Shown here piece by piece: positions 8,168 to 32,514 of a DNA stretch of 64,000 nucleotides. The position numbers and the translations under genes are program-made. The stretch spans positions 1,688,501 to 1,752,500 of the forward strand of contig NZ_CP049834.1 of assembly GCF_019916085.1 (NCBI RefSeq). Reading direction: 5' to 3'. How positions within the stretch are numbered: position 1 is the first letter of the stretch; the number at the start of each line of letters is the position of its first letter. The notes beneath the pieces are model-generated. The model worked only from the letters and a program-made list of their open reading frames with translations, searched no databases and had not been told where the DNA came from. The stretch is from Aquirufa lenticrescens (GTDB lineage: Bacteria; Bacteroidota; Bacteroidia; Cytophagales; Spirosomataceae).

Positions 8168-8217
8168 TAGCCTCGGATGGAATCGAACCATCATATTAGG
8201 TACCGGAAACCTACATT
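8168..8217 (-). pseudogene. Displaced 3' half of tRNA-Arg(CCG)
   Basis: This segment matches the anticodon arm, T-arm and 3' acceptor strand of the complete tRNA at 32443-32514, and stops inside the 5' side of the anticodon stem. Three positions differ. Two of them (8178 and 8190) face each other in the T-stem: the stem here reads GATGG/CCATC, in the intact tRNA GAAGG/CCTTC, so pairing is kept. It is the original chromosomal 3' end, pushed aside when the element integrated. Confidence 0.85.
8196..8217. repeat. attL core
   Basis: 22 bp identical to 32471-32492. It covers the anticodon stem-loop and the start of the variable region of tRNA-Arg. Similarity continues leftward to 8163 with three mismatches; rightward it stops after 8217. 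Strand exchange should lie within these 22 bp. Confidence 0.85.
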
Positions 8218-8544
8218 ATCACAAAACAGGTGTTTATTTGATTTAAAGAACATATTGATGTCTTTTTGTGTAGCAAAATGTTAGTTTTTGGATGTTTTGC
8301 TACACAAGTGCTGCACAAATCTTGATTTGAAAAACTTCGTTTAATTTAAAGGAAGTAAATTACCACCTCTTTTTGATTTGTACTCCCTTAATAGGTGGAA
8401 TGTTGCAGCCGTTTTCGATGTTTAAATTAAAAAATTATGATTCAAAATTTGATGTTTGACACTTTAATAATAACATAAATTAAAATTTGAGGTGAAATGC
8501 ATCAGAGTAATGAAACAAATTCATACTTTTAAGCGTTTTTAAAC
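8218..8544. promoter_or_regulatory. Left-end region of the element with integrase arm-type repeats
   Basis: No gene is seen in this AT-rich stretch. TGCTACACAA occurs at 8298-8307, a one-mismatch copy at 8309-8318, and an inverted copy at 8266-8275. The same motif occurs twice at the other end (32345-32354, 32358-32367). Such multiple short copies flanking both att cores are what tyrosine integrases bind with their N-terminal domain. An inverted pair CCACCT/AGGTGG near 8362 and 8394 and a TTTG around 8455 upstream of the first gene are also visible, without clear meaning. Confidence 0.6.
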
Positions 8545-8931
8545 ATGATGCTGCAAAAATTCCACATACTGCTCATAATTATATTTATTGGCTTTCTAAC
8601 GATGCCCATGAAATCCTATGCATGTGGAGCAAAATCAAAGAAAACGGAACAATCTTGTTGTTTAAAAGAAAAGCCTGAGAAATCTAAAAAAGATATTTGT
8701 TGCGCAAAACATAAAATTATTGGACAGAAGGAAGACAATAGTTGTGGGGGGAATTGTGATAATTCTAAATGTAGTTGTCCGTCAACTTTAACTTCGCTGA
8801 TTTTGTCTAATTTTTTAGTACCCGTAAATATTAAAACCTTTACCACTCGTGAAAAAGTAAAATCTTATTACAACGAAACCTACCATTCTTTTGGTTTTGG
8901 TTACATTTGGACCCCTCCCAATATAGGCTAA
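8545..8931 (+). CDS. Small exported HYC_CC_PP family protein
   Basis: 128 residues with a signal peptide ending near MKSYA. The mature part is rich in cysteine pairs (SCCLKEK, ICCAKHK, SCGGNCDNSKCSC) and lysine, and ends in the WTPPNIG tail that defines the Bacteroidota HYC_CC_PP proteins. Members usually sit beside copper or Czc efflux genes; the Cys clusters suggest periplasmic metal binding, but I know of no demonstrated function. It is the first gene of the rightward copper module. Confidence 0.7.
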   Translation: MMLQKFHILLIIIFIGFLTMPMKSYACGAKSKKTEQSCCLKEKPEKSKKDICCAKHKIIGQKEDNSCGGNCDNSKCSCPSTLTSLILSNFLVPVNIKTFTTREKVKSYYNETYHSFGFGYIWTPPNIG

Positions 8932-9018
8932 TTTATTGCCATGGCAGTCATAGGACTGTCTCAACGGAAGCAAATTATTGCTTCAATTCTTACTATTTTT
9001 ATAAAAAAATTTCAAAAA

Positions 9019-9879
9019 ATGAAATCAATAAAATTATTGATGGCTATGGCATTAATGCTATCCATCTCGACATGTTTCGCAGAAATTAAAAATGCCAAGG
9101 TAGAAACCGTACACATTTATGGAAATTGTTCTATCTGTAAGAAGACCATCGAATCGGCTGCTAATGTAAAGAATGTGGTCCATATAGAATGGAACAAGGA
9201 TACGAAAATGGCCATCCTAACCTATGATGAAAAGAAAACAAATCAAGATGAAATTCTAAAGCGAATTGGTTTGGCAGGATATGACAGCGACAAATTTCTC
9301 GCTCCTGACAATGTTTATGCTAAACTTGAAACTTGTTGCCAATATGAACGGACAGGAAAAGTTGTTGCATTAGTTGAAGACGTAAAACCGGTAATTCTTG
9401 CTGTAGAAGAAAAAGTTGTCGCGCCCATTTTAGCAACAAATATACAAGAAGAGAAACTCAAAGAAGTATTCGATTCCTATTTTGCAGTGAAAGATGCTTT
9501 GGTGAAAACGGATGGTAATCTGGCAGCAACAAAAGCAGTATCCCTGTTGAATTCTATTAATTCGGTCAAAATGGAATCATTAACGAAAGAAGAACATGTA
9601 GAATGGATGAAAGTGATGAAAGATTTGGTCTTTGATGCGGAACATATTTCAGAAACCAAAGATGCGGGACATCAAAGAGACCACTTTACATCTTTATCTA
9701 AAAACATGTATTCGGTGATGAAAGTCTCAAAACAAGAGACCCCAACATATTATCAATTTTGTCCAATGGCTAACAAAGGCAAGGGTGCAAATTGGTTGAG
9801 CAAGGAGAACATCGTTAAAAACCCTTATTATGGTTCTAAAATGTTGGGATGTGGTAAAGTTGTTGAAACCTTAAATTAA
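9019..9879 (+). CDS. Exported HMA and DUF3347 protein (copper handling)
   Basis: 286 residues from the ATG at 9019, which gives a proper signal peptide (MKSIKLLMAMALMLSISTCFA); an in-frame ATG at 8941 would add 26 residues that spoil it. Residues 28-95 are an HMA-type domain with CSIC (Cys37, Cys40). The C-terminal 150 residues are a DUF3347 domain with FDSYFAVKDALVKTD and the QFCPMANKGKGANWL region near the end, found in Bacteroidota proteins next to copper exporters and in CusB-like adaptors. It probably binds Cu(I) in the periplasm. Its stop overlaps the start of the next gene (TAATG), implying translational coupling. Confidence 0.75.
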   Translation: MKSIKLLMAMALMLSISTCFAEIKNAKVETVHIYGNCSICKKTIESAANVKNVVHIEWNKDTKMAILTYDEKKTNQDEILKRIGLAGYDSDKFLAPDNVYAKLETCCQYERTGKVVALVEDVKPVILAVEEKVVAPILATNIQEEKLKEVFDSYFAVKDALVKTDGNLAATKAVSLLNSINSVKMESLTKEEHVEWMKVMKDLVFDAEHISETKDAGHQRDHFTSLSKNMYSVMKVSKQETPTYYQFCPMANKGKGANWLSKENIVKNPYYGSKMLGCGKVVETLN

Positions 9880-10439
9880 TGAAACTATACATTAAAAACA
9901 TGGTTTGTAATCGATGTAAAATGGTCGTGAATTCTGAGCTAGAAAAACTTGGACTTCACCCAATTCACATTGAGTTAGGTGAGGTAGAAATAAAAGAAGA
10001 AAATATAGATTCAATAAAATTGGATGTAATCAGTGTCTTCAAGTCTGTTGGGTTTGAATTAATTGATGACAAAAAAGGTAGAACAATTGAACAGGTAAAA
10101 AATCTAATTATTGAATTGGTTCATCACAAAAACAATGACTTAAGAGTTAATCTTTCTAATTATTTATCTCAACACTTAAATCAAGAATACAAATCTCTGA
10201 GTAACCTTTTTTCGGTAGTAGAACAGCAAACCATTGAACAATTCTTTATCAAGCAAAAAATTGAAAAAGTAAAAGAATTGCTCATGTATGATGAATTAAC
10301 ATTGAGCCAAATTGCATACCAATTGAATTACAGTAGTGTTGCGTATCTAAGTAATCAATTTAAAAGGGAAACAGGTTTTACAACGTCCTATTTTAAACAA
10401 CTTAAATCAAGTAAAAGAACCGGTATTGACAGTGTATAA
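9879..10439 (+). CDS. HMA-like domain fused to an AraC-type HTH regulator
   Basis: 186 residues. The N-terminal 60 or so resemble a heavy-metal-associated fold with CNRC (Cys10, Cys13); the C-terminal 100 form an AraC-type helix-turn-helix region, with LTLSQIAYQLNYSSVAYLSNQF and KRETGFTTSYFK as the second half. Cytoplasmic transcription regulator; metal sensing through CxxC is inferred from the fusion. Likely targets are the copper module itself. The start codon overlaps the upstream stop, and the next gene follows after 100 bp containing the direct repeat AACGTAACGT (about 10471), a possible operator. Confidence 0.75.
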   Translation: MKLYIKNMVCNRCKMVVNSELEKLGLHPIHIELGEVEIKEENIDSIKLDVISVFKSVGFELIDDKKGRTIEQVKNLIIELVHHKNNDLRVNLSNYLSQHLNQEYKSLSNLFSVVEQQTIEQFFIKQKIEKVKELLMYDELTLSQIAYQLNYSSVAYLSNQFKRETGFTTSYFKQLKSSKRTGIDSV

Positions 10440-10539
10440 GAAAGGAAATCTTATATAATTTCTAAAAAATAACGTAACGTCACGATGGTTTTAATTTGGG
10501 AAATTTGCGTTTTATATAACTCTATTTAAAAACACAAAT

Positions 10540-11253
10540 ATGACACATACATATCAATTAACTGGAATGACTTGCACAAGTTGTGAATCAAAAGTAAAAT
10601 CATTGTTAGAGAGCGTTGAAAATGTAACTAATGTTGAGGTTTCTAAGGAATACGATTCGGTTACCATTTCAATGGATAGGCACATCAACTTGTCAAATTT
10701 CCAGAAAGTATTAGATGCAAAATATACCATTTCTGCAAAACAAAACATTGAATTAGAGGAACAAGCAAAATCGTGGTTTCAAACTTATGCTCCAATTTTG
10801 CTGATTTTTCTCTATGTCTCTACTATTACTTTATTGATACAACTGAAAAGCGGACATTTTATTTTAATGGAGGCGATGCAGCATTTTATGGCTGGGTTCT
10901 TCTTAGTGTTCTCATTTTTCAAATTGTTAAATTTAAAAGGTTTTGCCGAAAGTTATGTCATGTATGATGTGGTAGCAAAAAAATTCTCCTTTTGGGCATA
11001 TTCATACGCTTTTGTAGAGGTTGGCTTGGGTATTTCTTATCTTTTAAATTACAATCCTTTAGTAACAAATGCCTGCACGTTTGTGGTCATGAGTATAAGT
11101 ATAATAGGTGTTTTGCAGTCAGTATTTGATAATAAGAAAATACAATGTGCTTGTTTGGGGGCAGTTTTTAATTTGCCAATGAGTACTGTGACAATTATCG
11201 AAGATGCATTGATGATTGTAATGAGCGGATATATGATTTTAAATTTATTTTAA
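10540..11253 (+). CDS. Membrane protein with N-terminal HMA domain and MauE/DoxX-like region
   Basis: 237 residues: an HMA domain (residues 1-70, GMTCTSC with Cys12 and Cys15), then four or five hydrophobic segments from about 85 to the end. The membrane part resembles MauE/DoxX-like proteins and carries KKIQCACLGAVFNLPMSTVT, a conserved Cys-containing loop of this Bacteroidota group. It probably moves or delivers copper across the inner membrane, but transport has not, to my knowledge, been shown. Three bases separate it from the multicopper oxidase gene. Confidence 0.7.
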   Translation: MTHTYQLTGMTCTSCESKVKSLLESVENVTNVEVSKEYDSVTISMDRHINLSNFQKVLDAKYTISAKQNIELEEQAKSWFQTYAPILLIFLYVSTITLLIQLKSGHFILMEAMQHFMAGFFLVFSFFKLLNLKGFAESYVMYDVVAKKFSFWAYSYAFVEVGLGISYLLNYNPLVTNACTFVVMSISIIGVLQSVFDNKKIQCACLGAVFNLPMSTVTIIEDALMIVMSGYMILNLF

Positions 11254-11255
11254 AC

Positions 11256-13484
11256 ATGAGATTGATACCAATAATTGCCGTTTTTGTGCTGTTTTCAACA
11301 ACTGTTTTCGCCCAAAAAGTTGTTCGTTATGACCTTTATGTAAAAGACACCTTAGTGCATTTTGCTGGCAAAGAAAAACGAGCGATTGCAGTTAATGGTC
11401 AAATACCTATGCCTACTTTGACTTTTACCGAAGGCGATACGGCTGAAATACATGTTCATAACCAACTGAAGGAGGAAACCTCGTTGCATTGGCACGGGCT
11501 ATTTTTACCCAATAAAGAAGATGGGGTTCCCAACCTGACACAAATGCCCATTCGGCCAAATACAACTCATATCTATCGTTTCCCAATTATTCAAAATGGC
11601 ACTCACTGGTATCACTCACACTCAGGGTTACAAGAACAAATAGGAATGTATGGGAATTTTGTCATGTTAAAAAGACCGAACACCCCATCATTTAGAAAGG
11701 GAATTGATGACTTACCTACGCTTCCTATTGTATTGAGTGAGTGGACCAATCTCAAACCCGAGAACATTCATAGGATGCTTCATAATGCCAATGACTATCC
11801 TGCATTGAGAAAAAACTCGGTACAAAGTTATGGGGAAGCAATATCTGCAGGTCATTTTAAAACTAAAATGAAAAATGAGTGGAAGCGAATGATGGCGATG
11901 GATGTGAGTGATGTCTATTATGAAAAAATATTCATGAATGGTCTACCTATTTCAGAACTTAAAAATATCTCAGGAAATGAATTAAAAGGTGGTGACAAGG
12001 TTAGATTAAGAATTTCAAATGGGGGGGCATCATCCTATTTTTGGTTGACTTACGCCGGGGGTAAAATTACAGTAGTCGCAAATGATGGGAACGATGTGGA
12101 ACCGGTTGAAGTTGATAGATTAATTATTGCGGTTTCAGAAACCTATGATATTATTGTTACTATTCCAGCAGATAAGACTGCCTATGAATTCTTAGCAACG
12201 ACTGAAGACCGGACTAATTCAGCATCCATTTATATTGGAAATGGAATTAAACAGTTGAAATCACCTTTACCCCGATTAAAGTATTTTGAAGGGATGAAGA
12301 TGATGAATGACATGATGAAGATGAATGGCGAATTGGATGATATGGGTATGGCCATGAGTTTAAATCAAATGGATATGAATGTGGTGATGTATCCTGAAAT
12401 AACTGGCGATGCTAAGCCAAAACAAGATGACAATGACCCCAATCGTTATAATGCCAATGCACTGGGAGACATTGTTACCCTGAATTATGCCATGCTGAAG
12501 TCCCCTAGCATAACAGCATTGCCCAAGGATGCTCCAGTAAAAGAATTGTACTTTAAACTCTCCGGTAATATGAATCGATATGTTTGGAGTTTAGACAATA
12601 GGGTCGTTTCAGAAGCCGATAAAATCCTTATCAAAAAAGGAGAAAATGTTAGAATTATTCTCTACAATGGTTCCATGATGCGCCATCCGATGCACCTACA
12701 TGGGCATGATTTTAGGTTACTTAACGGTCAAGGACAAAATGCTCCTTTAAAAAACATTGTGGATGTTATGCCGATGGAGACGGATACATTAGAATTTAAC
12801 GCCAATGTTGAAGGTGATTGGTTTTTCCATTGTCATATTTTGTACCATATGATGAGCGGAATGGGTAGGGTATTAAGTTATGAAAATCAGATGCCCAATC
12901 CATTGATTCCTAATCCAAAACTAGCGCAACGGAAACTGTTTGCAGACGACCGCAAGTTTCATTTTATGGCTGAGAATGATTTTGCAACCAACGGTAATGA
13001 TGGAATGGCCATGTTACAAAATACGAGGTGGAGCATTGGTTCAGAATGGCGATTGGGCTATCATGATTTTCACGGATATGAGGTAGAAACACATATTGGT
13101 AGATATGTTGGGAAAATGCAGTGGTTAATGCCATTTATTGGCTTTGATTGGCGTTATAGAAAGTTTGGAATAGATGAACAGGAAACAAATCTATTTGGGC
13201 AATCAAATAGTAAGGACCTAAGAAGTCTTGTTACAGTCGGCGTAAATTACACGTTGCCATTACTCATTGTTGGACAAGCTGAAATCTATCAGGATGGAAA
13301 TATTCGTTTTCAACTTATGAGAGAAGATATGCCTATTACCAAACGACTTAGAGTGAGTTTTATGCTTAACACCGATAAGGAATACATGGCAGGTTTTCGT
13401 TACATCGTAAACAAAAACATGGGCATTACATCACATTATGATAGTGATATGGGATTGGGTGCTGGAATAACTTTTTCTTACTAA
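11256..13484 (+). CDS. Multicopper oxidase of the CopA resistance type with C-terminal CopB-like barrel
   Basis: 742 residues with a signal peptide (ending TTVFAQ). All four copper ligand blocks are present: HWHG (about 78), HWYHSHS (about 116), HPMHLHGHDF (about 478) and HCHILYHM (about 526). A Met-rich stretch (residues 345-380, MMNDMMKMNG...MGMAMSLNQMDM) fits Cu(I) binding. CopA oxidises Cu(I) in the periplasm. After residue 565 the protein continues for some 180 residues that look like beta strands of the CopB outer-membrane protein (FIGFDWRYRKFG, GFRYIVNKNMGI, ending GAGITFSY). It is the core of the copper module. Confidence 0.9.
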   Translation: MRLIPIIAVFVLFSTTVFAQKVVRYDLYVKDTLVHFAGKEKRAIAVNGQIPMPTLTFTEGDTAEIHVHNQLKEETSLHWHGLFLPNKEDGVPNLTQMPIRPNTTHIYRFPIIQNGTHWYHSHSGLQEQIGMYGNFVMLKRPNTPSFRKGIDDLPTLPIVLSEWTNLKPENIHRMLHNANDYPALRKNSVQSYGEAISAGHFKTKMKNEWKRMMAMDVSDVYYEKIFMNGLPISELKNISGNELKGGDKVRLRISNGGASSYFWLTYAGGKITVVANDGNDVEPVEVDRLIIAVSETYDIIVTIPADKTAYEFLATTEDRTNSASIYIGNGIKQLKSPLPRLKYFEGMKMMNDMMKMNGELDDMGMAMSLNQMDMNVVMYPEITGDAKPKQDDNDPNRYNANALGDIVTLNYAMLKSPSITALPKDAPVKELYFKLSGNMNRYVWSLDNRVVSEADKILIKKGENVRIILYNGSMMRHPMHLHGHDFRLLNGQGQNAPLKNIVDVMPMETDTLEFNANVEGDWFFHCHILYHMMSGMGRVLSYENQMPNPLIPNPKLAQRKLFADDRKFHFMAENDFATNGNDGMAMLQNTRWSIGSEWRLGYHDFHGYEVETHIGRYVGKMQWLMPFIGFDWRYRKFGIDEQETNLFGQSNSKDLRSLVTVGVNYTLPLLIVGQAEIYQDGNIRFQLMREDMPITKRLRVSFMLNTDKEYMAGFRYIVNKNMGITSHYDSDMGLGAGITFSY

Positions 13485-13536
13485 AAACTTTTTAATTGTC
13501 TATTGAGATAATTTAACTTCAATAAAAAACAAAATC

Positions 13537-14097
13537 ATGAAAAAAAACATTGTTTTAAACCTCTTGTTGACATTACCTATTGGCGTTTTTGCCCAACACC
13601 AAAACCATCAACCCAAAGTCGATACCAGTCAAACAGCAGTCAAGCCCAAAAGTCCAAAAATGACGGCAATGGCAATGGTAGGCACAAATCATGTACATAT
13701 AGAATACGGTTCACCGAGTGTGAGAGGGCGGAATATTTGGAATGGTTTAGTTGCCTTCAATCAAGTATGGTCATCGGGAGCTCACAAAGCTACTTGGATA
13801 GATTTTGGTCATGATATAATGGTTGAAGGTAAAGTTATTACAAAAGGTAAATATGGATTTTTTACTATTCCTGATAAAGAAACGTGGACTTTGATTTTGA
13901 GTAAAACGTGGGATATGCACTTATCGGACGATTATAAAGAAGAAAATGACATCATCCGAATTAAGGTAAAACCCTTCAAAAGCGATAAATTAGTTGAAGC
14001 CCTTACGTATGAAGTAATGCCGACCAATGCTAACGAAGGCAAAATAAAATTGAGCTGGGAGTATTTGAATGTTGAGTTTCCATTTAAAAACAAGTAA
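13537..14097 (+). CDS. DUF2911 domain protein
   Basis: 186 residues with a signal peptide (ending GVFAQ) and a His-rich start (HQNHQPK). The body carries the DUF2911 pattern: YGSPSVRGRNIWNGLVAF, VWSSGAHKATWIDF, GKYGFFTIPDKETWT. The fold is thought to be a secreted beta domain; function unknown. It closes the rightward copper module and shares its base composition. Confidence 0.75.
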   Translation: MKKNIVLNLLLTLPIGVFAQHQNHQPKVDTSQTAVKPKSPKMTAMAMVGTNHVHIEYGSPSVRGRNIWNGLVAFNQVWSSGAHKATWIDFGHDIMVEGKVITKGKYGFFTIPDKETWTLILSKTWDMHLSDDYKEENDIIRIKVKPFKSDKLVEALTYEVMPTNANEGKIKLSWEYLNVEFPFKNK

Positions 14098-15199: not shown

Positions 15200-17230
15200 T
15201 TAAAACTTCATCCGTTGTATTCGCACCGCATTTAATATTGCTAATAAAGCCACTCCAACATCCGCAAAAACGGCTTCCCACATGGTGGCTAAACCACCTG
15301 CACCCAATACCAATACAATGGCTTTTACTGCAAATGCTAAAATGATATTCTGTATTACAATGCTCCTGGTGGCTTTGCCTATTTTAATGGCGGTTACAAT
15401 CTTTAAAGGCTGGTCTGTTTGTATCACTACATTGGCTGTTTCTATGGCTGCATCGCTGCCCATTGCACCCATTGCAATGCCCACATCGCTTAAAGCCAAT
15501 ACGGGTGCATCGTTGATGCCATCGCCTACAAATGCAATGATTTTTGTCTTGTCCTGTTTTAGTTCTTCTACTTTCTGTACTTTGTTTTCTGGTAGCAAAT
15601 CGCCAAAGGCGGTATCTATGCCAATTTGTTTTGCTACTTTTTGGGTAATGGAATTTTTATCGCCACTAAGCATTATGGTTTGTTTAATGCCGTTCAGGTG
15701 CATTTGCCTGATGGCTTCCTGTGCATCCTCTTTTACTTCATCGGCTATCAATACATAACCTGTATACTGGTTGCCTATGGCTACCACTACAATGCTTTCT
15801 ATAATTTCGTCAATAGCTGCATCGTATGTGATATTATATTTCTTTAGCAGTTTTGTATTACCTGCCAATACTTCTTTCCCGTTCACATTTCCCTTTAAGC
15901 CATGCCCTGAAATTTCTTCTATCTCTGTCGCCTGGTAAGTTTGTGTTTCGTTCTTTTCATACTCGGCAATGGCTTTGGCAATAGGATGTGTTGATTTGCT
16001 TTCTAATGCAGCTAATGTTTTTATGAAATCTGTTTTGTCCATTCCGTTAGTTACAATTGCCTGCACTTTAAAAACACCTGCCGTTAGTGTGCCGGTTTTG
16101 TCCATCACAACGGTATTTATTTTGGTCATTAACTCTAAATAATTAGAACCTTTAAACAAAATACCATTTCTTGAAGCCGCACCTATGCCGCCAAAATAGC
16201 CCAATGGAATAGAGATAACCAATGCACAAGGGCAACTGATAACTAAGAAAATTAAAGCCCTGTACAGCCAATCATTAAACACATAATTGCTTAGAACAAA
16301 GTAGGGAACCACCACCAATGCTACTGCCAAAAAGAAAACGATAGGTGTATAGATTTTGGCAAATTTTCTTATCAGCAATTCTGTTTTTGCCTTTCTTGCA
16401 GTAGCATTTTGCACCATTTCCAAAATCCGTGCAAGGGAACTATCGGCAAATTTTTTGGTTACTTTCAGTTCAATTACTTTATCAAGGTTTAGCATACCTG
16501 CCAATACCTGTGCTCCTTTATAAATAGATTTTGGTTTGCTTTCTCCTGTAAGTGCTGCGGTATTGAAGCTGCTGCCCTCACTTAACATTTCACCATCTAA
16601 CGGAATTTTTTCGCCTGCTTTAATTTGTATGGTTTCGCCTATTTCTACTTCTTCGGGTTTTATTTCTTCGTATTTATTATTCCTTAAAACGCTGGCAGAA
16701 GATGGACGGACATCTAATAAGGCTTTGATATTGTTTTTTGCTTTATTAACTGCTGCCTTCTGAAACAATTCACCAACGGCATAGAATAACATTACCGCAA
16801 CACCTTCGGGATATTGACCGATGGCAAAAGCCCCCATAGTGGCCAATACCATTAATGTAAACTCGGTGAAGAACTCTTTTTTAAGACTGGCTTCCCATCC
16901 TTCTTTTATTACCGGTAAACCAACAGGTAGGTATGCAATAGCATACCATGCAAGGCGTACATAGTTTGTAAAGAATGAGGGTTTGAAATAATTATCCAAC
17001 GCAATGCCAATGAGCAACATAACGAAACTGATAATGGCTGGCAGGTATTGTTTCCATACACTACTATGAGCTTGCAATTGGACTTTATCTTGTCCACTAT
17101 CAATGGTTTTCTTTTTATGCAGCAGTTGTTCTGCACCTGCTTCGGTATAGATTTTTTCTTCTAATGTGCAGCAGGTCATCCTGCCTTGTTCATCGTAAGT
17201 ATGCTTATGATTTGGGGCTGTATTTATCAT
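15200..17230 (-). CDS. Heavy-metal P1B-type ATPase (Cd/Zn/Co exporter type)
   Basis: 676 residues. All P-type ATPase landmarks are visible: TGES (about 228), the CPC metal site in the membrane (SCPCALVIS, about 334), DKTGTLT with the phosphorylated Asp (about 377), the HP locus (STHPIAKAI) and GDGINDAP (about 570). There is no full HMA domain at the N-terminus, only a short His/Cys segment (HKHTYDEQGRMTCC). The family pumps divalent Zn, Cd, Co or Pb out of the cytoplasm; the membrane segments point to the ZntA/CadA subgroup rather than CopA. It is last in the leftward Czc operon, 25 bp after the adaptor gene. Confidence 0.9.
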   Translation of the reverse strand: MINTAPNHKHTYDEQGRMTCCTLEEKIYTEAGAEQLLHKKKTIDSGQDKVQLQAHSSVWKQYLPAIISFVMLLIGIALDNYFKPSFFTNYVRLAWYAIAYLPVGLPVIKEGWEASLKKEFFTEFTLMVLATMGAFAIGQYPEGVAVMLFYAVGELFQKAAVNKAKNNIKALLDVRPSSASVLRNNKYEEIKPEEVEIGETIQIKAGEKIPLDGEMLSEGSSFNTAALTGESKPKSIYKGAQVLAGMLNLDKVIELKVTKKFADSSLARILEMVQNATARKAKTELLIRKFAKIYTPIVFFLAVALVVVPYFVLSNYVFNDWLYRALIFLVISCPCALVISIPLGYFGGIGAASRNGILFKGSNYLELMTKINTVVMDKTGTLTAGVFKVQAIVTNGMDKTDFIKTLAALESKSTHPIAKAIAEYEKNETQTYQATEIEEISGHGLKGNVNGKEVLAGNTKLLKKYNITYDAAIDEIIESIVVVAIGNQYTGYVLIADEVKEDAQEAIRQMHLNGIKQTIMLSGDKNSITQKVAKQIGIDTAFGDLLPENKVQKVEELKQDKTKIIAFVGDGINDAPVLALSDVGIAMGAMGSDAAIETANVVIQTDQPLKIVTAIKIGKATRSIVIQNIILAFAVKAIVLVLGAGGLATMWEAVFADVGVALLAILNAVRIQRMKF

Positions 17231-17255
17231 TTTATGAAAATTGATTTAGTTATTA

Positions 17256-18512
17256 TTATTCTTCCTCTTTACCACCACTGGCTTTTGATAATACATAAAA
17301 TGCACCTTTGGTTGCAATCCTTGCACCTTTCGGTATTTCTTCCAATGGCGTAATTTCTATGTAGCCCAATTCTGTTACACCTGTGGTTACTTCTATCTTT
17401 TTAAAATGAATATGCTTTTCAGCTTTGGCTTCTGTATTCTTTTCTGACTTTTCCCCTGCTTCCTTTTTTTCAGCCTTCTCTTTACCTTCGCTTTCCTCAT
17501 CCACAACCATAAAAATATATTGCTTGCCTTCTGCACTTACCACTGCATCAACAGGAACTGCCTGTACTGTTTGATTACCTACATTAATCAATGCAGATAC
17601 ATACATACCCGGTAACAATTTGATGCCGCCTGTATTGTTGATTTTGGCATGTACAATTACCGATTTGTTTTCATTTTCAAAAGATTGATTGATACCGTAA
17701 ATAGTACCTGTTATTTGCTTATTGTTCTGATTGGATAGAATGAACTCTACTGTCTGCCCATTCTTTACTTTAAACAAATCCTTTTCATACACCTGCAAAT
17801 CACAATGAACTTGTGAGTTATCTACAATATCCATTAAGGAGGTTTGCATATCAATATAGCTGCCTGTTTTAATTAGTATATGCCCTATAACACCACTAAT
17901 AGGTGCGGTGATGGGAATTTGATTTACAAAATTTCCATTCGCCACCGATGCAGGACTGATATTTAATTGTTGCAATTGTTTTTCTATCCCTTTCATTCTT
18001 GCTTTATCCGTTTCATATTTGGATGCTGCCTGTTGAAACACTTTTCCTGTACCTGCACTTTCGGTATTCAGTTCCTTTTGGCGTTGGTACTCCTTTTCAG
18101 AATAAACAAATTCTTTTTTCAGCATGAGGTAGTCCTGCTGCAACTTCACAATGTCTGTGTTTTCTAATATTGCTACTGTTTGCCCCTGGCGAACATAGTT
18201 GCCTTCCAACACTAATATTTTTTTAATGATGCCGGACACCAATGAATTTACATCGGCTTTATTTTGTGGGGGCACTTCCAATTGTCCGCTTGACTTTACC
18301 ACACTGTTTAGATTTTTCATTTCTATTGTACCTAACTCAATGCCTACGGCTTTCATTTGCTCCTCCGAAACTTCTATGGTTTCTGAATGGGTTTCCTCAA
18401 CTTTAGTTGTTTCTTTTGTTTCCGTTTTATTGCCCGATTTGCAGGATGTAAAACCGATTGCAACTACAAAGAGTGCAAATGCTATGATTGATTTTATATT
18501 TATTGACTTCAT
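17256..18512 (-). CDS. RND efflux periplasmic adaptor (CzcB/CusB type) lipoprotein
   Basis: 418 residues. The N-terminus ends in a lipobox (GFTSC), so the protein is lipid-anchored. Order of parts: Glu/Thr-rich linker, barrel-sandwich halves around a coiled hairpin (LQQDYLMLKKEFVYSEKEYQRQKEL), LPGMYVSALI in the beta-barrel domain, and a charged Lys/Glu stretch before a C-terminal domain (HIHFKKIEVTTGV). It links the inner-membrane RND pump to the outer-membrane channel. It ends just before cadA-like 15200-17230 and starts one base after the end of the RND fusion gene, so it is co-transcribed. Confidence 0.9.
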   Translation of the reverse strand: MKSINIKSIIAFALFVVAIGFTSCKSGNKTETKETTKVEETHSETIEVSEEQMKAVGIELGTIEMKNLNSVVKSSGQLEVPPQNKADVNSLVSGIIKKILVLEGNYVRQGQTVAILENTDIVKLQQDYLMLKKEFVYSEKEYQRQKELNTESAGTGKVFQQAASKYETDKARMKGIEKQLQQLNISPASVANGNFVNQIPITAPISGVIGHILIKTGSYIDMQTSLMDIVDNSQVHCDLQVYEKDLFKVKNGQTVEFILSNQNNKQITGTIYGINQSFENENKSVIVHAKINNTGGIKLLPGMYVSALINVGNQTVQAVPVDAVVSAEGKQYIFMVVDEESEGKEKAEKKEAGEKSEKNTEAKAEKHIHFKKIEVTTGVTELGYIEITPLEEIPKGARIATKGAFYVLSKASGGKEEE

Positions 18513-18513
18513 T

Positions 18514-21500: not shown

Positions 21501-22911
21501 CCACTAATGCGAATAGTGGCAGGTAAACTATTAAGATGATAATTTCACCAAATGCGGCACTGCTTCTGATTTTTGAAGCGGCTTCAAATACTTCATCATC
21601 CATTTGTGATTGCGAAAGTTTTTGCAAACCGACATGATGATGCTTACTCATGTAAATCCTATGAACAATTGCTTCAATAATAATTACTGCACCATCTACA
21701 ATTAAGCCAAAATCAATTGCACCCAAACTCATAAGGTTGCCGCTTACACCAAACAAATTCATCAGTATAATGGCAAAGAGCATTGCTAAAGGAATAACAG
21801 AAGCTACTATAAGACCTGCCCTTAGATTTCCTAAAAGCAATACCAAAATAAACACTACAATCAGTCCTCCTTCAATCAAATTCTTTTCTACCGTACCCAT
21901 TGCCCTGTTTACTAATTCTGTTCGGTCAATAAATGGTTCTATTACTACACCTTCGGGCAATGATTTTTGTATTTGTGCCATTCGCTGTTTAACATTTGTA
22001 ATTACCTGTGCAAAGTTTTCACCTTTCAGCATCAGGGTAATACCTGCCACTACTTCGCCTTCACCGTTTCTTGTAACTGCACCGTACCGTGTTGCACTGC
22101 CAAACTGTACCGTTGCCACATCCCGGATTAATATAGGAATGCCGTTTACGTTTTTTACTACTATTTTTTCAATATCACTTAATGACTTTACCAGTCCCAA
22201 ACCACGAATAAAATAAGCATTGCTGCGTTGCTCTATATAGCTGCCACCAGTGTTTTCATTATTACTTTCTAATGCCTTGTATATTTCAGGAATTGTAATG
22301 TTCATAGCATTGAGCTTGTCATTATCCAAAGCAATTTCATATTGCTTCACATAACCACCCCATCCGCTTACTTCTGCCAAACCCTCTGTACCTGCCAACT
22401 GCCTTTTTACAATCCAATCCTGCATAGTACGCAAATCGGTAGCGGTGTATTTGTTTTCATACCCTTTTTTTGCATGTATGATATAATGATATATTTCACC
22501 CAATCCCGTAGTAATAGGTGCTAAAGTTGGTTCACCTAAACCTTGCGGAATTTGTGCTTCTGCTTCTTTTAGGCGTTCACTTATTTGCTGCCTTGCCCAA
22601 TAGACATCAGCATTGTCTTTAAAAACAATTGTGATTACGGATATACCACTCCGGCTCATGCTCCGCTTTTCAATTACATTGGGAATATTTGCAATTGCCA
22701 ACTCAATAGGTGTGGTAATAAACTGCTCTACCTCCTGAGCACCCAATGTTGGTGCTTGTGTAATTATCTGTACCTGGTTGTTGGTGATGTCCGGCACAGC
22801 ATCAATAGGTAACCGCATAGCGGATATAACGCCCCAAATAATGAGAGCCAATGTAAAAGCCCCCACTACAAGTTTGTTTTTTATTGAGAACTGAATTATT
22901 TTTTGAAACAT
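18514..22911 (-). CDS. CzcA-type HME-RND pump fused to a TolC/CzcC-type outer-membrane factor
   Basis: 1465 residues, about 400 more than an ordinary CzcA. Residues 1-1040 are a complete heavy-metal RND pump, with DFGLIVDGA (about 400) in the proton-relay helix, periplasmic loops such as TDPMPIERADMM, and the second set of membrane helices up to TLLVLPALYILF. From about 1044 a second signal-peptide-like segment follows (MTVLLLFTFIGLFAEKSYAQ), then some 390 residues of TolC repeats (TLQECIDIALKNN, YNTGETNQLEKMQAESRYKENQ, KGEIGYMEYIQNLQ). Known in Bacteroidota as a fused pump and channel. Whether it works uncut is unclear: the signal-like segment could be a linker helix or be cleaved. Confidence 0.9.
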   Translation of the reverse strand: MFQKIIQFSIKNKLVVGAFTLALIIWGVISAMRLPIDAVPDITNNQVQIITQAPTLGAQEVEQFITTPIELAIANIPNVIEKRSMSRSGISVITIVFKDNADVYWARQQISERLKEAEAQIPQGLGEPTLAPITTGLGEIYHYIIHAKKGYENKYTATDLRTMQDWIVKRQLAGTEGLAEVSGWGGYVKQYEIALDNDKLNAMNITIPEIYKALESNNENTGGSYIEQRSNAYFIRGLGLVKSLSDIEKIVVKNVNGIPILIRDVATVQFGSATRYGAVTRNGEGEVVAGITLMLKGENFAQVITNVKQRMAQIQKSLPEGVVIEPFIDRTELVNRAMGTVEKNLIEGGLIVVFILVLLLGNLRAGLIVASVIPLAMLFAIILMNLFGVSGNLMSLGAIDFGLIVDGAVIIIEAIVHRIYMSKHHHVGLQKLSQSQMDDEVFEAASKIRSSAAFGEIIILIVYLPLFALVGIEGKMFKPMAQTVAFAILGAFILSLTYVPMMSALFLSKKATHKRNISDKIIDFLQQLYTPLLNWALHWKKTIVAAMVVLFAGSLILFNSLGGEFIPTLEEGDLAVEISMAQGTSLTQVVETLGKAEKILKDKFPEIKQAVTRIGSSEIPTDPMPIERADMMLAMKPKEEWTSAHTREEMMEKMEEALSILPGVNFEITQPMQMRFNELITGIKQDVAIKIYGEDLEILNAQANKIAGLIKNVKGVSEPFVEKISGLPQIQVEYNRDKIAQYGLNISDVNMVLKTAFAGNVAGVVFEGDKRFDMVVRLQKDLRKDFSNIENLYVPLPSGNKVPINQVANISFKTAPAQISHEDGQRRTFVGFNVRGRDVESTVEEIQPILDEKLKLPSGYYYTYGGQFQNLKEAKARLGIAVPVALLLILVLLYFTFNSVKQSFLIFTAVPLSAIGGIIALWLRGMPFSISAGVGFIALFGVAVLNGIVLIGYFNQLKDEGITDIYERVRKGTAVRLRPVIMTAAVASLGFLPMALSTGAGGEVQKPLATVVIGGLITATLLTLLVLPALYILFNTKINFKPNKMKKPKLQGNSMTVLLLFTFIGLFAEKSYAQSNQKTLQECIDIALKNNLQIKGADLYIQQSQVLQKTGFNPDKTNLQLVQDPTSGGNIDNSIGITQTIAFPTVYANQNKLLKQETLLAQKSKLLSQNEIIKEVTEAYYNLVYSSQKIKLLQQQDSIYSNFLKRATLRYNTGETNQLEKMQAESRYKENQLQLKQANTTLSSYQLVLQKWLNTSEPVMPKENELPKMPDDYKFDTAAIKSNPLIEYYNQRLNVSTSQINLEKSKLLPDLNVGYYHQAIVKGFDPAKINRNYFPGTRIAGFQVGIGVPLFFGSQKAKIKAAKINNTLIETERQQTLLYMQSSYAVQYNEYLKAKEGLQYYETTGLKQADDIIRISNTAYTKGEIGYMEYIQNLQTAINTRLQYTDAVNQFNQSIILLNYLKGNK

Positions 22912-25284: not shown

Positions 25285-25902
25285 TTACATTACCAACATC
25301 AATTTTTTGACCTTGGTAATCGTATTGATATGAAGACCTGTAATCTTTGATATTTCAACAGATTTGTAGTTCTTTTTAAGCAATTCCATTGCATGTCTAT
25401 TTTTTGACTTGGATAAGAATTTTAGCGGGTCTTCGCTGGTACCATGTTTTCTCCCTAAAAAAACGTTGCCTTTCAGTTTTGCCAGTTCAATTCCTTCTTT
25501 CTGTGCCGACTTAATCATGTTGCGATTCATCTCCGCAATTACAGACATCATGGCAATACACATCTTTGAGATTGGATTCTCTGTACCATCCTGGTTAAGA
25601 GTTGATAGACCTTGTTCAATAAAATGAACTGGTATTTTCCTCTCGACCATAAAATGTAGAAAATCAACAATTCCCTTCAGGTCACGACCGCACCGGTCGA
25701 TTTGCCAAAAGGATACAGACCCTACCAAATCCATTGAGATTAGTTTGAACAGTTCCTTTCCACCGGGTCTTTCAAATAATGCAACCGCTCCTGAAATTTT
25801 GTCCTCTATTACCTTATCGTAGTTGGCCTCTTGAACTCGTTGTCTATCTAAGTTTTGGTCAATCGAACTGGTACGAACATATAGAATACTTAGTTTTTTC
25901 AT
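25285..25902 (-). CDS. Serine recombinase (resolvase/invertase family)
   Basis: 205 residues. The catalytic N-terminal domain begins YVRTSSIDQN with the nucleophile Ser12 and has QIDRCGRDL with the catalytic arginines; the long helix follows (MMSVIAEMNRNMIKSAQKEG) and a C-terminal HTH (SVEISKITGLHINTITKV) binds DNA. Small serine recombinases resolve multimers or invert segments. Here it may resolve element dimers or serve in replication, because integration is explained by the tyrosine integrase. An 11-bp inverted repeat (25901-25911, 26011-26021) brackets its upstream region and overlaps its start codon. Confidence 0.85.
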   Translation of the reverse strand: MKKLSILYVRTSSIDQNLDRQRVQEANYDKVIEDKISGAVALFERPGGKELFKLISMDLVGSVSFWQIDRCGRDLKGIVDFLHFMVERKIPVHFIEQGLSTLNQDGTENPISKMCIAMMSVIAEMNRNMIKSAQKEGIELAKLKGNVFLGRKHGTSEDPLKFLSKSKNRHAMELLKKNYKSVEISKITGLHINTITKVKKLMLVM

Positions 25903-26609: not shown

Positions 26610-27878
26610 ATGTTTTCTTATTTTAAGGGTGGAATACAAGACAAATACCTCAACAGACATATCGACTTACCATCACTTGTAAGGTTTATAAAGAATAATC
26701 CAGAGGAACTTAAAATCGAAAAGGTTCGAGAACTTAGAAGAATTGGTAAGGATTACGATACACTAAAAAAATCCTTACCGAACGTAACACCTAATTGTTT
26801 ACTCAAGGTTCGAAAACTTAAAGATGCAGATTACAACCTAATTGCACCATCATCATATATCTACTTTGATATAGATGATTATCCCAATTCTCACAAACTA
26901 AAAGACCGGTTCATCGATGAATACGGTCACCTAGCTTCTCTAATATGTATATCATGTAGTCGGGGTGGTATTTCTATCTTCTTTAAGGTATCTAATCATC
27001 TTAAGAATGAAAATGACTTCCTTATTGCTCGGCAACACATTATTGATAACATATTGATTAATGAGAAGATTGATACCAATGCTGGTGGTATTGCACGTGC
27101 TATGTTTATATCCTCAGACTCTGATTTATTCTATAACTATGAGAATGAATTAGACATACCGGTGGAATTATTTAAAAAGGGCAAGAATAAGGTTGATAAC
27201 TGCCGGTTGGAAGATAAAAAACCTAATGATGATATGATACGTATCCATTGTGCACCCCAAGAACCATTTGTACCCACCCCAATCAAAGAAGTTTTAGAGC
27301 AATTGATACTGGAAACACCAGTAAATGTAAAGAACCCGGTAGTAGATTATAATGAGGTCAATTACGTTGAGATACGTTTTCAATATCTAATAAAGGATGG
27401 GTTGAAACATAAGACGTTCACAAATATGATTCATAAGTTAATATTCCTTAATCCAGTTGCCGATAAACATTTGCTCCAATCATATCTATATCATGTGAAT
27501 GAGGGATATACCGGTAATAAGAAGATGGAGCTGCGTGAACTGATGGGTTTATTTGATACCGTATATAATGGTGCAATATTCCTTGGGAACTCAAAAGTCA
27601 AGCCGGTCTTAAAACGTATCCATTATAACAAGGATTGCGATGCAACATTTAACAAACGTAAAGTGTCGGGTAAGATTCGAGGTATCCTAAAAGAGAACGA
27701 AACCAAGCTAAAAATTAGAGCAACTATTGAAGAGATGGAAACCAAAGGTATCCCCATTTCCAAGTCAAGTATATCCAAATATTCAGGAATTCACAGGGGA
27801 ACTATCATAAAACACATGGATACGAACCTTCATGACATAAAAAAAATTATAGACGAAATCAACGATTCTATTGAATAA
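26610..27878 (+). CDS. Primase-like VirE-N / BT4734 family protein
   Basis: 422 residues. The first 180 match the BT4734-like, VirE N-terminal domain, which is related to archaeo-eukaryotic primases: SYIYFDIDDYPN (about 84) resembles the metal-binding hDhD motif and ICISCSRGGISIFFKV (about 114) the S-x-G/H motif. A middle region (KHKTFTNMIHKL) and a C-terminal HTH (PISKSSISKYSGIHRGTIIKH) complete it. A role in priming or initiating element replication is likely. The ATG lies immediately after a terminator-like leader. It opens the rightward backbone. Confidence 0.7.
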   Translation: MFSYFKGGIQDKYLNRHIDLPSLVRFIKNNPEELKIEKVRELRRIGKDYDTLKKSLPNVTPNCLLKVRKLKDADYNLIAPSSYIYFDIDDYPNSHKLKDRFIDEYGHLASLICISCSRGGISIFFKVSNHLKNENDFLIARQHIIDNILINEKIDTNAGGIARAMFISSDSDLFYNYENELDIPVELFKKGKNKVDNCRLEDKKPNDDMIRIHCAPQEPFVPTPIKEVLEQLILETPVNVKNPVVDYNEVNYVEIRFQYLIKDGLKHKTFTNMIHKLIFLNPVADKHLLQSYLYHVNEGYTGNKKMELRELMGLFDTVYNGAIFLGNSKVKPVLKRIHYNKDCDATFNKRKVSGKIRGILKENETKLKIRATIEEMETKGIPISKSSISKYSGIHRGTIIKHMDTNLHDIKKIIDEINDSIE

Positions 27879-28833: not shown

Positions 28834-30357
28834 ATGAAAAATGTAATTAACGTTGAGGTTATCGAAGTCGATAATATCAAAATTCACCCTTTGCTTGAGC
28901 AATTTGTGAAACCCAAAAAGAAGGACCACATCGAATACACCATGAATCGATTGGGTCAGTTTACTCCACTACTTGGTAATTATGTTGGAGATACCTTTTA
29001 TGTAACGGACGGAATCGTCCGATTGGAAGTTGCGAAATCCTTAGGATTGAAAACTTTACAATGTCTGCACATTAACATTCCTGATGAGGATGTGGTAAAA
29101 ATCAGATTAACCAGTAACCAGCGAACCAAAATGTCATACAGTGAGATGATGCATTATGGAGAGCATATGTTAGGTCTTATTGGAAAATCTCAAGGAAAGA
29201 AAAGAGATTTAATGGAGTTTGACTTCATTGACAAGGATGAACATTATGGGCTTAAGGGTAAAGAAAGATTGGAATTAGTCTGCCACTTGCTTGACCTACC
29301 AATCGGAGCGTCATCATTACGAAAGTTGATGGAAATCAAATGGTTCGAAGATGAGAATCCGGGGAATAAAGTAGGGATTATGGCCGGTTTGGAAAATGGG
29401 TTGTACAAGATTGATAAAGCGCATCAATTACTCGGTGAAAAGGCTAAGAAAGAAGGCCAAATTGCAGATAGGAAACGGAAAGATTATGAAGGGAAAGTAA
29501 ATGATATTAGTTACCATTTATTTAACATATCCTCAATGGACCTTTCGGACATTCCTGATTCTAGCATGAGAATGTTCATTCAATCACCACCATATTTTCA
29601 GCTTCGGGAATATCGAAATCAACCTAAATCATTTATCCACGGTCAAGAGAAAACCTTAACTGAATACATCGATAATGAAATTAGATTTTACGATGGTACA
29701 AAAAGCAAGTTGTTACCAAATGGGGTCATCGTTATTATTATTGGTGAGACTTACAGAGATGGTTATCAAGGTGTTTGCACCAAATTGGAAACTGCACTTG
29801 CTGAGAATGGTTGGTATATTCATGATGTAAATACCTTTGTCAAGACCAACGCTAAGGCTACGCCTCACGTGGCAAGATTTCTGAATTCAAAAGAAACCAT
29901 CATCGTAGCGGGTTTAAAACCAGCAAATGAAACGTTATTTAATGAAGTCACAAGACCCTCTTCAATTGGGGAGTTCAAAGTGATACCTGGTTCATCAAGA
30001 ACCACTGGTGGTAAGGGATATTCAATGGCATCTCCTGAGTCATCTATTACGAATGTTTTTATCGAGTCTGTATTTCAAAAGTCAGAATACTCGGATGTTG
30101 ATGAGGAATTTTATCATCAAGCACCTACTTCAGTCAAAATTTATGAAAAATTCATCAAGGCTTATAGCAATCCAGGTGATAATGTAGGGGACTTATTTGT
30201 AGGAAGTGGTTCGGGGTTAGAAGCGGCAATTCAGAATGGAAGAAATGGATTTGGCTGGGATGTAGACCATAAGTCTATCGACTTTTGTAATATCCGTCTT
30301 ACAAAGCGTCTTGAAGAAAGAGAACAAGTGAAAATCGAATTATCGATTGCTGCATAA
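28834..30357 (+). CDS. ParB-like domain fused to a DNA methyltransferase
   Basis: 507 residues. Residues 1-100 are a ParB/Srx-type domain (QFTPLLGNYVGDTFYVTDGIVRLEVAKSLG). A linker to about 230 precedes a beta-class amino-methyltransferase: motif IV SPPYFQLREY (about 251) and, near the C-terminus, the SAM-binding motif I DLFVGSGSGLEAA (about 455). SPPY is most common in N4-cytosine enzymes, though N6-adenine is possible. No restriction gene is nearby, so it is an orphan methylase, perhaps protecting the element or marking its replication state. The same GTTGACAAAATATTT motif as before 27981 lies 43 bp upstream. Confidence 0.85.
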   Translation: MKNVINVEVIEVDNIKIHPLLEQFVKPKKKDHIEYTMNRLGQFTPLLGNYVGDTFYVTDGIVRLEVAKSLGLKTLQCLHINIPDEDVVKIRLTSNQRTKMSYSEMMHYGEHMLGLIGKSQGKKRDLMEFDFIDKDEHYGLKGKERLELVCHLLDLPIGASSLRKLMEIKWFEDENPGNKVGIMAGLENGLYKIDKAHQLLGEKAKKEGQIADRKRKDYEGKVNDISYHLFNISSMDLSDIPDSSMRMFIQSPPYFQLREYRNQPKSFIHGQEKTLTEYIDNEIRFYDGTKSKLLPNGVIVIIIGETYRDGYQGVCTKLETALAENGWYIHDVNTFVKTNAKATPHVARFLNSKETIIVAGLKPANETLFNEVTRPSSIGEFKVIPGSSRTTGGKGYSMASPESSITNVFIESVFQKSEYSDVDEEFYHQAPTSVKIYEKFIKAYSNPGDNVGDLFVGSGSGLEAAIQNGRNGFGWDVDHKSIDFCNIRLTKRLEEREQVKIELSIAA

Positions 30358-30459: not shown

Positions 30460-30804
30460 GTGAGGACAAATAATCAATTTTTAGTGGATTTGAAGGAGGT
30501 CATCCAACCAGGTGGTCTCCAATCAAATCTTGGTTATAACCAAGTTACTACAAGAATTTCTATTAAGGAGCTACACGTAAAAAAAGGATACCATTGTAAA
30601 CTAAATGACATTCTGAATTTCTGTCAGAATATTGAAAATGGCGAAGTTTTGGACCCTATTGAAGTTAATCAAAATAATATGATTGTCGATGGCGTGAAAA
30701 GATACTTTGCCTATAAAAGGTTGAAGTACAGCTTCGTTCAAGTTAAAGGAAGTAATGTGTTTATTGAAGAGTTTATAGGTGAAGGGTTTAAAATAATCAA
30801 GTGA
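30460..30804 (+). CDS. Small ParB-like protein
   Basis: 114 residues from a GTG at 30460; no ATG is available early in the frame. The C-terminal half carries a ParB/Srx-like pattern (GEVLDPIEVNQNNMIVDGVKRYFAYKRL) similar in layout to the N-terminal domain of the preceding methyltransferase. It lacks a DNA-binding HTH. Its stop overlaps the GTG of the integrase gene by four bases, so the two are coupled; an accessory role in excision or partition is possible. Confidence 0.6.
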   Translation: MRTNNQFLVDLKEVIQPGGLQSNLGYNQVTTRISIKELHVKKGYHCKLNDILNFCQNIENGEVLDPIEVNQNNMIVDGVKRYFAYKRLKYSFVQVKGSNVFIEEFIGEGFKIIK

Positions 30805-32336
30805 AAGTCATGTACCAGTTTTTTTCTTTAAGGAAGTCTCAGAAGGACAAGAATATTGGCTCAATCATTGAAAGTATTTTCGATGATAGAACACCTGTAT
30901 CAAGAAAGTCAATTGGATATAAAATACCGGTGAGACTTTGGGATGGAAACAATGAAAAAGTAAAAGTGAACGAAGGTGTGGATTACATTCTAATCAACAG
31001 TAGGATTCAAATGTTGAAAAACCAGTTCAGTCAAAAGATTAAAACTCAGAAGAGATTTGACCACCAAACACCTTCGTTAGTTGCTGAGAAGGAGATATGT
31101 TTTATTGAGTTCTGCAGGGAGATATTGGTCAAAGATTACGATTCTATCGCAACCCAAAATAAGTACACCACCATCGTCAATTCTATGGTTCTCTTCATCA
31201 AGGAACGCTACAACTTGGATAGACTTCCAATTGAAATTTTGCGTCGGTTTGACTTTATCTATGAGTATGCAATATTCATTGCAAAGCAAACCAATCGAAT
31301 TAAGGACCCAACCGCTACAAAGAAAAACAACACGAGGTTCAACTACATTGTGGTAATCCAAACTCTTGTTAGGAAGTTTAATCAACACCATCCGCACCTT
31401 GAGACAATAAAGACCGACCATTATATTATCCAAGTACCAAAGAAGAACTTGGAGAAGATTAAGTCACGCATGTTGAAGAAAGATGAAATCGAAAAGATTA
31501 TCAACTACCAAGAAATGGATGGTAAAAAGAGAATCAAGACAATGGAAGGGAAGTACCAGTTCCTGTTTCAATTTTTTACCTCAGGTCTTCGTGTTTCAGA
31601 TATTCTGCTAATGAACTTTAAACACTTCGTAGATGGACGACTTGAATTGATTATTCAAAAGAACGATGATTTGTTATCTGTTCCTTTCTCCTTCAAATCT
31701 GCGAAACTACTTTCTTACTTTTACCCAATGGAATTTCAACGAGCCTTGGAATTAAATCCAATTGGTCAGTTAAATCTAAGCGTTAATGAATTGGAGATAT
31801 TACTCAATATACATACTGAGAAGGATTTCGGTTCCTTAACGGTGTTGGACGTTGTCAACCTCAACAACCATCTTAAAAAAAATAAGTTTGATGATTACAG
31901 TGACGAGGTAATGATTATTGATGGTTTAATCCGTAGAATGGAGTCAATGGTTGCATACTCAATGTGTGAAATAATGGGGGAGAAAGAACCGGGACATGTT
32001 TTTGACTATCTCCCTTATGAGGATTTTAAGGATTTGAAGATTTTCGACAAGAAAAGGTTGAATAGAGACCAAATAAAACTACTGACAAGAGGTCGTTCCC
32101 GATATAACTCAAAATTACGAAGAATCGGAAGAGATTTGGGAATTAAGGAATTGTCAAGTCATGTTAGTCGACATTCATTTGCTTATCACATGTTGGAAAG
32201 TGGGGCTTCAATTGAGGAAATTTCTTTTGCCCTTGGTCATGCAACGGTACAACAAACACAAGGGTATTTGAAGCAGTTTCCACAGAAATTTGCTGATAAG
32301 GCAATAAAGGTTTTCGAGGACAGCTTTGAATTGTAA
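30801..32336 (+). CDS. Tyrosine integrase of the element
   Basis: 511 residues, start GTG 30801 (overlapping the upstream stop) or ATG 30810. The catalytic set is complete: Arg264 (SGLRVSD), a Lys in the LELIIQKND strand, HVSR (His454, Arg457), GHA, and Tyr489 (QGYLK). The region between Arg264 and HxxR is about 190 residues, longer than in most integrases. The N-terminal part should bind the TGCTACACAA arm repeats. The gene points at the tRNA it targets and ends 106 bp from it; it catalyses integration and excision at the 22-bp core. Confidence 0.9.
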   Translation: MKVMYQFFSLRKSQKDKNIGSIIESIFDDRTPVSRKSIGYKIPVRLWDGNNEKVKVNEGVDYILINSRIQMLKNQFSQKIKTQKRFDHQTPSLVAEKEICFIEFCREILVKDYDSIATQNKYTTIVNSMVLFIKERYNLDRLPIEILRRFDFIYEYAIFIAKQTNRIKDPTATKKNNTRFNYIVVIQTLVRKFNQHHPHLETIKTDHYIIQVPKKNLEKIKSRMLKKDEIEKIINYQEMDGKKRIKTMEGKYQFLFQFFTSGLRVSDILLMNFKHFVDGRLELIIQKNDDLLSVPFSFKSAKLLSYFYPMEFQRALELNPIGQLNLSVNELEILLNIHTEKDFGSLTVLDVVNLNNHLKKNKFDDYSDEVMIIDGLIRRMESMVAYSMCEIMGEKEPGHVFDYLPYEDFKDLKIFDKKRLNRDQIKLLTRGRSRYNSKLRRIGRDLGIKELSSHVSRHSFAYHMLESGASIEEISFALGHATVQQTQGYLKQFPQKFADKAIKVFEDSFEL

Positions 32337-32344
32337 TTCACACT

Positions 32345-32367
32345 TGCTACACAAATCTGCTACACAA
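32345..32367. promoter_or_regulatory. Integrase arm-type repeats, right end
   Basis: Two exact direct copies of TGCTACACAA at 32345-32354 and 32358-32367, 13 bp apart. The same motif occurs at the left end (8266-8318). They start nine bases after the integrase stop. Confidence 0.6.
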
Positions 32368-32390
32368 ATTCCCTTTTTACTTAAAATACA

Positions 32391-32422
32391 AAAGGACATT
32401 TCATTGCGAAATGTCCTTTTTT
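32391..32422. terminator. Element-borne terminator for the rebuilt tRNA-Arg and the integrase
   Basis: AAGGACATTTC / GAAATGTCCTT is an 11-bp perfect stem with loop ATTGC and T-runs on both sides, so it can work in both directions. It ends the integrase transcript and, on the minus strand, the tRNA transcript. The host's own tRNA terminator is now at 8118-8150. Confidence 0.75.
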
Positions 32423-32442
32423 GTTGACCAGAGGTCAGTTTG

Positions 32443-32514
32443 TAGCCTCGGAAGGAATCGAACCTTCATCTTAGGTACCGGAAACCTACATTCTATCCAT
32501 TGAACTACGAAGCC
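32443..32514 (-). tRNA. tRNA-Arg (anticodon CCG)
   Basis: 72 nt. Acceptor GGCTTCG/CGAGGCT (with G-T pairs), D-arm GTTC...GAAT, anticodon stem TAGGT/ACCTA with loop TTCCGGT, T-arm GAAGG-TTCGATT-CCTTC. CCA is not encoded. The 3' part from the anticodon arm on was supplied by the integrated element; the original 3' half is at 8168-8217. Confidence 0.95.
32471..32492. repeat. attR core
   Basis: Exact 22-bp partner of 8196-8217, lying in the anticodon arm of the intact tRNA-Arg. Confidence 0.85.

Follow-up and report, generated by a model that had tools for sequence, protein, structure and literature searches.

The metal-resistance island in the window, the analysed stretch of 64,000 nucleotides of the genome of the freshwater bacterium Aquirufa lenticrescens (contig NZ_CP049834.1, positions 1,688,501 to 1,752,500), has probably (with a probability of roughly 0.6) integrated into the anticodon arm of a tRNA-Arg(CCG) gene, whereby the incoming 3' half of the gene was of the type that is standard in the genus and the displaced half represents a rarer host allele dating from before the insertion. 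An island carrying a tyrosine integrase gene would have entered the tRNA gene through a crossover in the anticodon arm and would have supplied all that lies 3' of this crossover, namely the variable loop, the T-arm, the 3' acceptor strand, and the terminator. The host's own 3' half would have been pushed to the far end of the island, as read directly from the anatomy of the element, with the direction of the exchange deduced from the related island of Aquirufa aurantiipilula (genome G017). The incoming half would have carried the T-stem that is standard in Aquirufa, and the displaced half (U45, U51-A63) most likely was a rarer allele in the host lineage when the island arrived. Islands that restore their target tRNA and leave a displaced fragment behind are textbook knowledge. 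The restoration is thus known as such, and what is added here is that the restored and displaced halves differ as alleles.

The tRNA-Arg(CCG) gene and its displaced 3' half

ARAGORN retrieved a single tRNA gene in the window, the working tRNA-Arg(CCG) (32442-32514, minus strand), with G45 and the T-stem GAAGG/CCTTC, of which the 5' part would belong to the host and the 3' half to the island. A displaced 3' half of this tRNA (8167-8217, minus strand; 51 nt), with U45 and the T-stem GATGG/CCATC, was located at the left end of the island, on the attL side. Both copies lie on one contig of 2.5 Mb. The Rfam model RF00005 scored the working gene at 63.5 bits and the displaced copy (8168-8228) at 30.9 bits, the gathering score being 29. 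A BLAST alignment of the displaced copy (8163-8217, minus strand) with the working gene covered 55 bp at 94.5% identity (E-value 2e-19) and contained three differences, in agreement with a previous sequence-only reading of this DNA, which had placed them in the variable loop and at two partners of the T-stem. The first difference (8195 in the displaced half, 32470 in the working gene) corresponds to tRNA position 45, which is U in the displaced half and G in the working gene; position numbers are our own assignment, read from the sequence. The other two differences (8190/32465, position 51, and 8178/32453, position 63) make up the middle pair of the T-stem, which reads GAUGG/CCAUC in the displaced half and GAAGG/CCUUC in the working gene. 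Pair 51-63 is hence U-A in the former and A-U in the latter, and the earlier statement that the exchange keeps the T-stem paired holds when read from the sequence. Furthermore, the cloverleaf was the minimum-energy fold for both 3' versions when joined to the 5' half present in the window. Both strands of the T-stem are situated on the 3' side of the presumed crossover and move together. Preserved pairing is therefore expected, and the covariation carries no particular information on the exchange. A block of 22 nt of the anticodon arm (8196-8217, minus strand), which is the same in the displaced half and the working gene, is the presumed crossover region on the basis of the A. aurantiipilula alleles discussed below. 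On its 3' side, the displaced half borders on host flank (8088-8166, minus strand), consisting of intergenic sequence between this half and a Carb_kinase gene (7275-8087).

Gene content of the island

The island between the displaced half and the working gene measures approximately 24 kb, and its tyrosine integrase gene adjoins the tRNA. Judged by its anatomy, it is a tRNA-targeting integrative genomic island, with a tRNA fragment at the far end, a tyrosine integrase inside, and an empty site in relatives. The left end (8218-8387, plus strand) is kept in other islands, as the segment 8164-8387 is 88% identical to the island end of A. aurantiipilula (L034; 224 bp) and the segment 8191-8350 is 87% identical to a sequence of genome G019 (L031). 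A first set of cargo genes (8545-14097, plus strand) comprises an open reading frame (8545-8931) and genes coding for a DUF3347 protein, an AraC-type regulator, an HMA/MauE protein, a multicopper oxidase, and a DUF2911 protein, the HMA/MauE protein and the multicopper oxidase being counted as metal-resistance cargo. A second cargo block (15200-22911, minus strand) consists of three metal-resistance genes, coding for a heavy-metal P-type ATPase (15200-17230), an RND periplasmic adaptor (17256-18512), and a CusA/CzcA-type RND pump (18514-22911). The latter is a single frame of 1465 amino acids that also contains an outer-membrane efflux (OEP) domain, apparently representing a pump-channel fusion. 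Further genes code for a resolvase-domain protein (25285-25902, minus strand; PF00239), a weakly PrimPol-like protein (26610-27878, plus strand; NF040562 at 32 bits, far below the cut-off of 200; PADLOC PrimPol, E-value 4e-4) that had no match in Pfam, and a DNA methylase (28834-30357, plus strand; PF01555 and MTase_II models). The predicted tyrosine integrase (30801-32336, plus strand; 511 amino acids) matched PF00589 at residues 432-493, and its C-terminal part gave weak matches to XerA, XerC, XerD, and integron integrase chains. The right end of the island (32387-32441, minus strand) contains a terminator-like repeat, GGACATTTCGCAATGAAATGTCC, and is located directly 3' of the working tRNA; similar sequence was found 3' of the tRNA in G017, G018, G019, and G042. 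Families involved in conjugation were absent from the Pfam matches of the 16 island open reading frames scanned.

Related integrases and islands

An integrase that is 96% identical to the one in the window is encoded at the same tRNA in A. aurantiipilula. Scanning genome contigs with the integrase confirmed one locus, in A. aurantiipilula 15D-MOB. Integrases with an identity of at least 46% over nearly the full length were restricted to the window's own genome (G000), G015, G017, and G018, and for the majority of the 38 genomes that gave an integrase match, the matches were distant only (E-value about 1e-6). That G017 and G018 have related integrases at this tRNA shows, as far as sequence likeness goes, the spread of the integrase family only. 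The island family was present in distant Aquirufa species. Three different tRNA halves were found beside full-length integrases (G000, G017, and G018) and a fourth one beside an integrase fragment in G042. In G019 (L031, 17161-19426), a form of 2.2 kb was seen, both ends of which are like those of the island in the window and which is devoid of an integrase; it contains one long reading frame, FG-GAP-like as judged from the sequence by eye. From its ends and content, it looks as if this form is a cargo-only relative of the island.

Probable exchange of alleles in A. aurantiipilula

The working gene of A. aurantiipilula contains G45, GCAGG/CCTGC, and CGGGGCT, and its displaced half U45, GAAGG/CCTTC, and CGGGGTC. 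The latter combination is also that of the working genes in G020, G024, and G039. These three genomes group together with A. aurantiipilula (support of 0.97 combined, 0.87 for rpoB, and 0.87 for psu) in trees limited to two genes, rpoB and psu (window 32527-33243). As the displaced half carries the allele of the sister genomes, it belongs to the host, and the working 3' half belongs to the island; the same alleles indicate a crossover on the 5' side of position 45, within the 22-nt block of the anticodon arm. Applied to the window, this reasoning would assign the displaced half to the host and the working 3' half to the island. In addition, U45 is present in another two half-copies located on the host side in A. 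aurantiipilula, the better kept one ending in GGTCAC. Judged by these alleles, A. aurantiipilula offers a clear example of a tRNA gene whose allele was overwritten by an island. GCAGG also occurs in G005 and G015, outgroups to A. aurantiipilula and its sisters, and the working allele could be an old one that was retained instead; the host-side half-copies would then be unexplained. The sequence-only reading was supported in that a tRNA 3' half travels with the element and that integration can change the working allele, which is best seen in this species; the foreign source that it attached to the incoming half was not supported.

Alleles in the genus and empty sites

A tRNA-Arg(CCG) 3' half was matched in 31 of the 38 genomes of the genus, the seven genomes without a match being left out of the counts. 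A single working gene was present in 30 of these 31 genomes and two were contributed by G013, giving 32 working genes. The T-stem GAAGG/CCTTC was found in 27 of these genes and GCAGG/CCTGC in five. GATGG/CCATC occurred in none of the 32 working genes from the 31 Aquirufa genomes, nor among the matches from 16 of 390 genomes of the order, which were obtained with a narrow pattern, too narrow to map alleles. Viral contigs gave no matches to the GATGG half or to the general half. The GAAGG/CCTTC half, which had been read as the mark of a foreign source, turned out to be the majority allele. Among the genes compared, the unusual allele is the displaced GATGG/CCATC, not the incoming GAAGG/CCTTC. 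Indeed, the exact incoming half (G45, GAAGG/CCTTC, and CGAGGCT) is also present in G019, G046, G047, and one contig of G013.

An empty site was retrieved in two draft genomes, G023 and G047, in which the left flank of the window continues uninterrupted into a complete tRNA-Arg and psu. Both tRNAs contain GAAGG/CCTTC and G45, so that the supposedly foreign T-stem occurs in close relatives free of the island, an outcome that the sequence-only reading had itself named as refuting its proposal; the tRNA of G047 is identical to the working tRNA of the window. The flank 8088-8166 is identical to the stretch that immediately follows the complete tRNA on its 3' side at 76 of 79 positions in G047 and at 75 of 79 in G023, and the 3' half of G023 differs from the displaced half of the window at 5 of 51 positions. 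A second contig of G047 (C99) matches the flank and ends where the tRNA repeat begins, indicating that G047 may represent a mixed population for an insertion. Similarly, G023 is placed beside G000 by psu and beside G007 by rpoB, the latter gene being partial, and this disagreement suggests that the G023 draft genome may be mixed. As to the genomes with GCAGG/CCTGC, half-copies were found downstream in G005, G015, G017, and G041, and the contig of G021 ends at the tRNA; as these are five partly related genomes, a possible association of this allele with islands is left unclaimed.

A T-loop insertion in other half-copies

Twelve half-copies at the CCG locus, originating from nine genomes, had GTCGCGNNCGAC inserted into the T-loop, ahead of TCGATTCC, for instance L034 12124-12359, L044 4564-4762, L031 17161-17179, and L041 8148-8166. 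The insertion GTCGCGNNCGAC was found in none of the 32 working CCG genes. The downstream length read for half-copies varied by genome, down to zero at contig ends. The insertion motif is shared by half-copies of tRNA-Arg(CCT) and also adjoins tRNA-Arg(CCT) genes; one such place, L177 (G000:C1:1949112-1949141), belongs to the same genome as the window but lies beyond it. In places it is arranged in tandem, in units of about 80-220 bp, and it occurred in 27 of 222 genomes of the family, belonging to 2 of 36 genera. The same T-loop insertion was present on different host allele backgrounds.

Alternative explanations

The main rival to an older host allele is decay of the displaced half, a rather unlikely course of events in which the host had GAAGG/CCTTC and the unused half gained three mutations after its displacement, two of which re-formed a pair by chance. 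Such decay would fit with both empty-site relatives having GAAGG/CCTTC and G45, which also means that, with an older host allele, the change must have taken place on the branch leading to the window. Furthermore, two observations speak for decay and count against an older host allele: no working gene with GATGG/CCATC is known, and the half has changed to a similar extent as the adjoining flank (3 of 51 positions in the half versus 3 of 79 in the flank relative to G047). However, when three random substitutions per set were placed in the 51-nt half, a compensated double change in one of the ten stem pairs arose in only 0.77% of 1,000,000 simulated sets. In addition, the five other displaced halves without the T-loop insertion (G007, G012, G015, G017, and G018, the displaced half of the latter being located on a different contig from its working gene) are undecayed, as they equal the working allele of their own or sister genomes. 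Many displaced halves elsewhere do differ, but through the shared T-loop insertion and not through scattered changes. The simulation and the five undecayed halves favour a host allele older than the insertion as the most likely origin of the displaced sequence.

It is improbable that the crossover took place 3' of the T-stem, in which case the working gene would be the host's up to that point and the odd T-stem would belong to the left end of the island. The window itself would then need no mutation, its working gene being that of the empty site in G047. In A. aurantiipilula, however, such a crossover would demand a host gene of the composition G45-GCAGG/CCTGC-CGGGGTC, a combination that all 32 working genes lack; a crossover in the anticodon arm, by contrast, gives exactly the allele of the sister genomes. 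Moreover, the six displaced halves without the T-loop insertion all begin to resemble the tRNA at the anticodon arm, as for anticodon-centred sites. The A. aurantiipilula alleles and this start of homology indicate a crossover in the anticodon arm, as far as sequence comparison can locate it. A crossover inside the T-loop was rejected, since one parent would have had a mismatched T-stem. The proposal of the sequence-only reading, namely a recent arrival of the island from a lineage of hosts of which the GAAGG/CCTTC T-stem would be the mark, is very improbable. The two halves do differ and the island family does extend to distant Aquirufa species, but both empty-site relatives have the allele concerned, as do 27 of the 32 working genes, and given the occurrence of the exact incoming half in four other genomes, the donor could equally well have been closely or distantly related.

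Comparison with known islands

Tycheposons are islands with cargo that occupy tRNA genes in aquatic bacteria and have small cargo-only relatives, a trait that the 2.2 kb form of G019 resembles by description; their hosts belong to another phylum than Aquirufa. Islands at the tmRNA gene of which the island-borne 3' part replaces a diverged host part were reportedly described by Williams in 2003; that case concerns tmRNA, whereas the one in the window concerns tRNA. Islander separates anticodon-centred from T-arm sites (PMC4383910). The anticodon-centred islands share with the window a tyrosine integrase, an island-borne 3' fragment restoring the tRNA, a displaced fragment at the opposite end, and homology starting from the anticodon arm; to that extent there is no difference in principle, the restored and displaced halves in the window being different alleles. 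Island-made tRNA fragments have been treated as false tRNA annotations (PMC9897764), and the displaced fragment of the window resembles these in still being scored by a tRNA model, although that source concerns annotation and the present case allele exchange. Replacement of an allele in a tRNA gene is stated in none of the related titles retrieved, which is no proof of absence.

Acceptor pairing after the proposed exchange

Diverged halves at island ends can be interpreted only together with relatives, as the window alone suggests a foreign incoming half, whereas its relatives identify the incoming half as ordinary and the displaced one as odd. T-stem pairing would survive such swaps and acceptor pairing would be exposed, with the acceptor pairs joining the 5' strand of the host to the 3' strand of the island. 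Standard or G-U pairs were present at all seven acceptor positions in 31 of the 32 working genes. The draft genome G013 contained two contigs (L049 3540-3590 and L139 58-108) with different tRNA-Arg(CCG) 3' ends. One of these has A7 facing C66 and a flank unlike that of its clade, and the other has the native pair and the native flank. The A7/C66 contig looks like a mismatched swap, in a draft genome and with 194 bases of flank. Speculatively, and with a low probability, the tRNA-Arg(CCG) 3' half may be a mobile cassette, islands of one integrase family carrying different halves from one Aquirufa species to another and overwriting the host allele; the transfer of islands could then be limited by acceptor pairing, and the mismatch in G013 might be a mismatched swap caught in the act.
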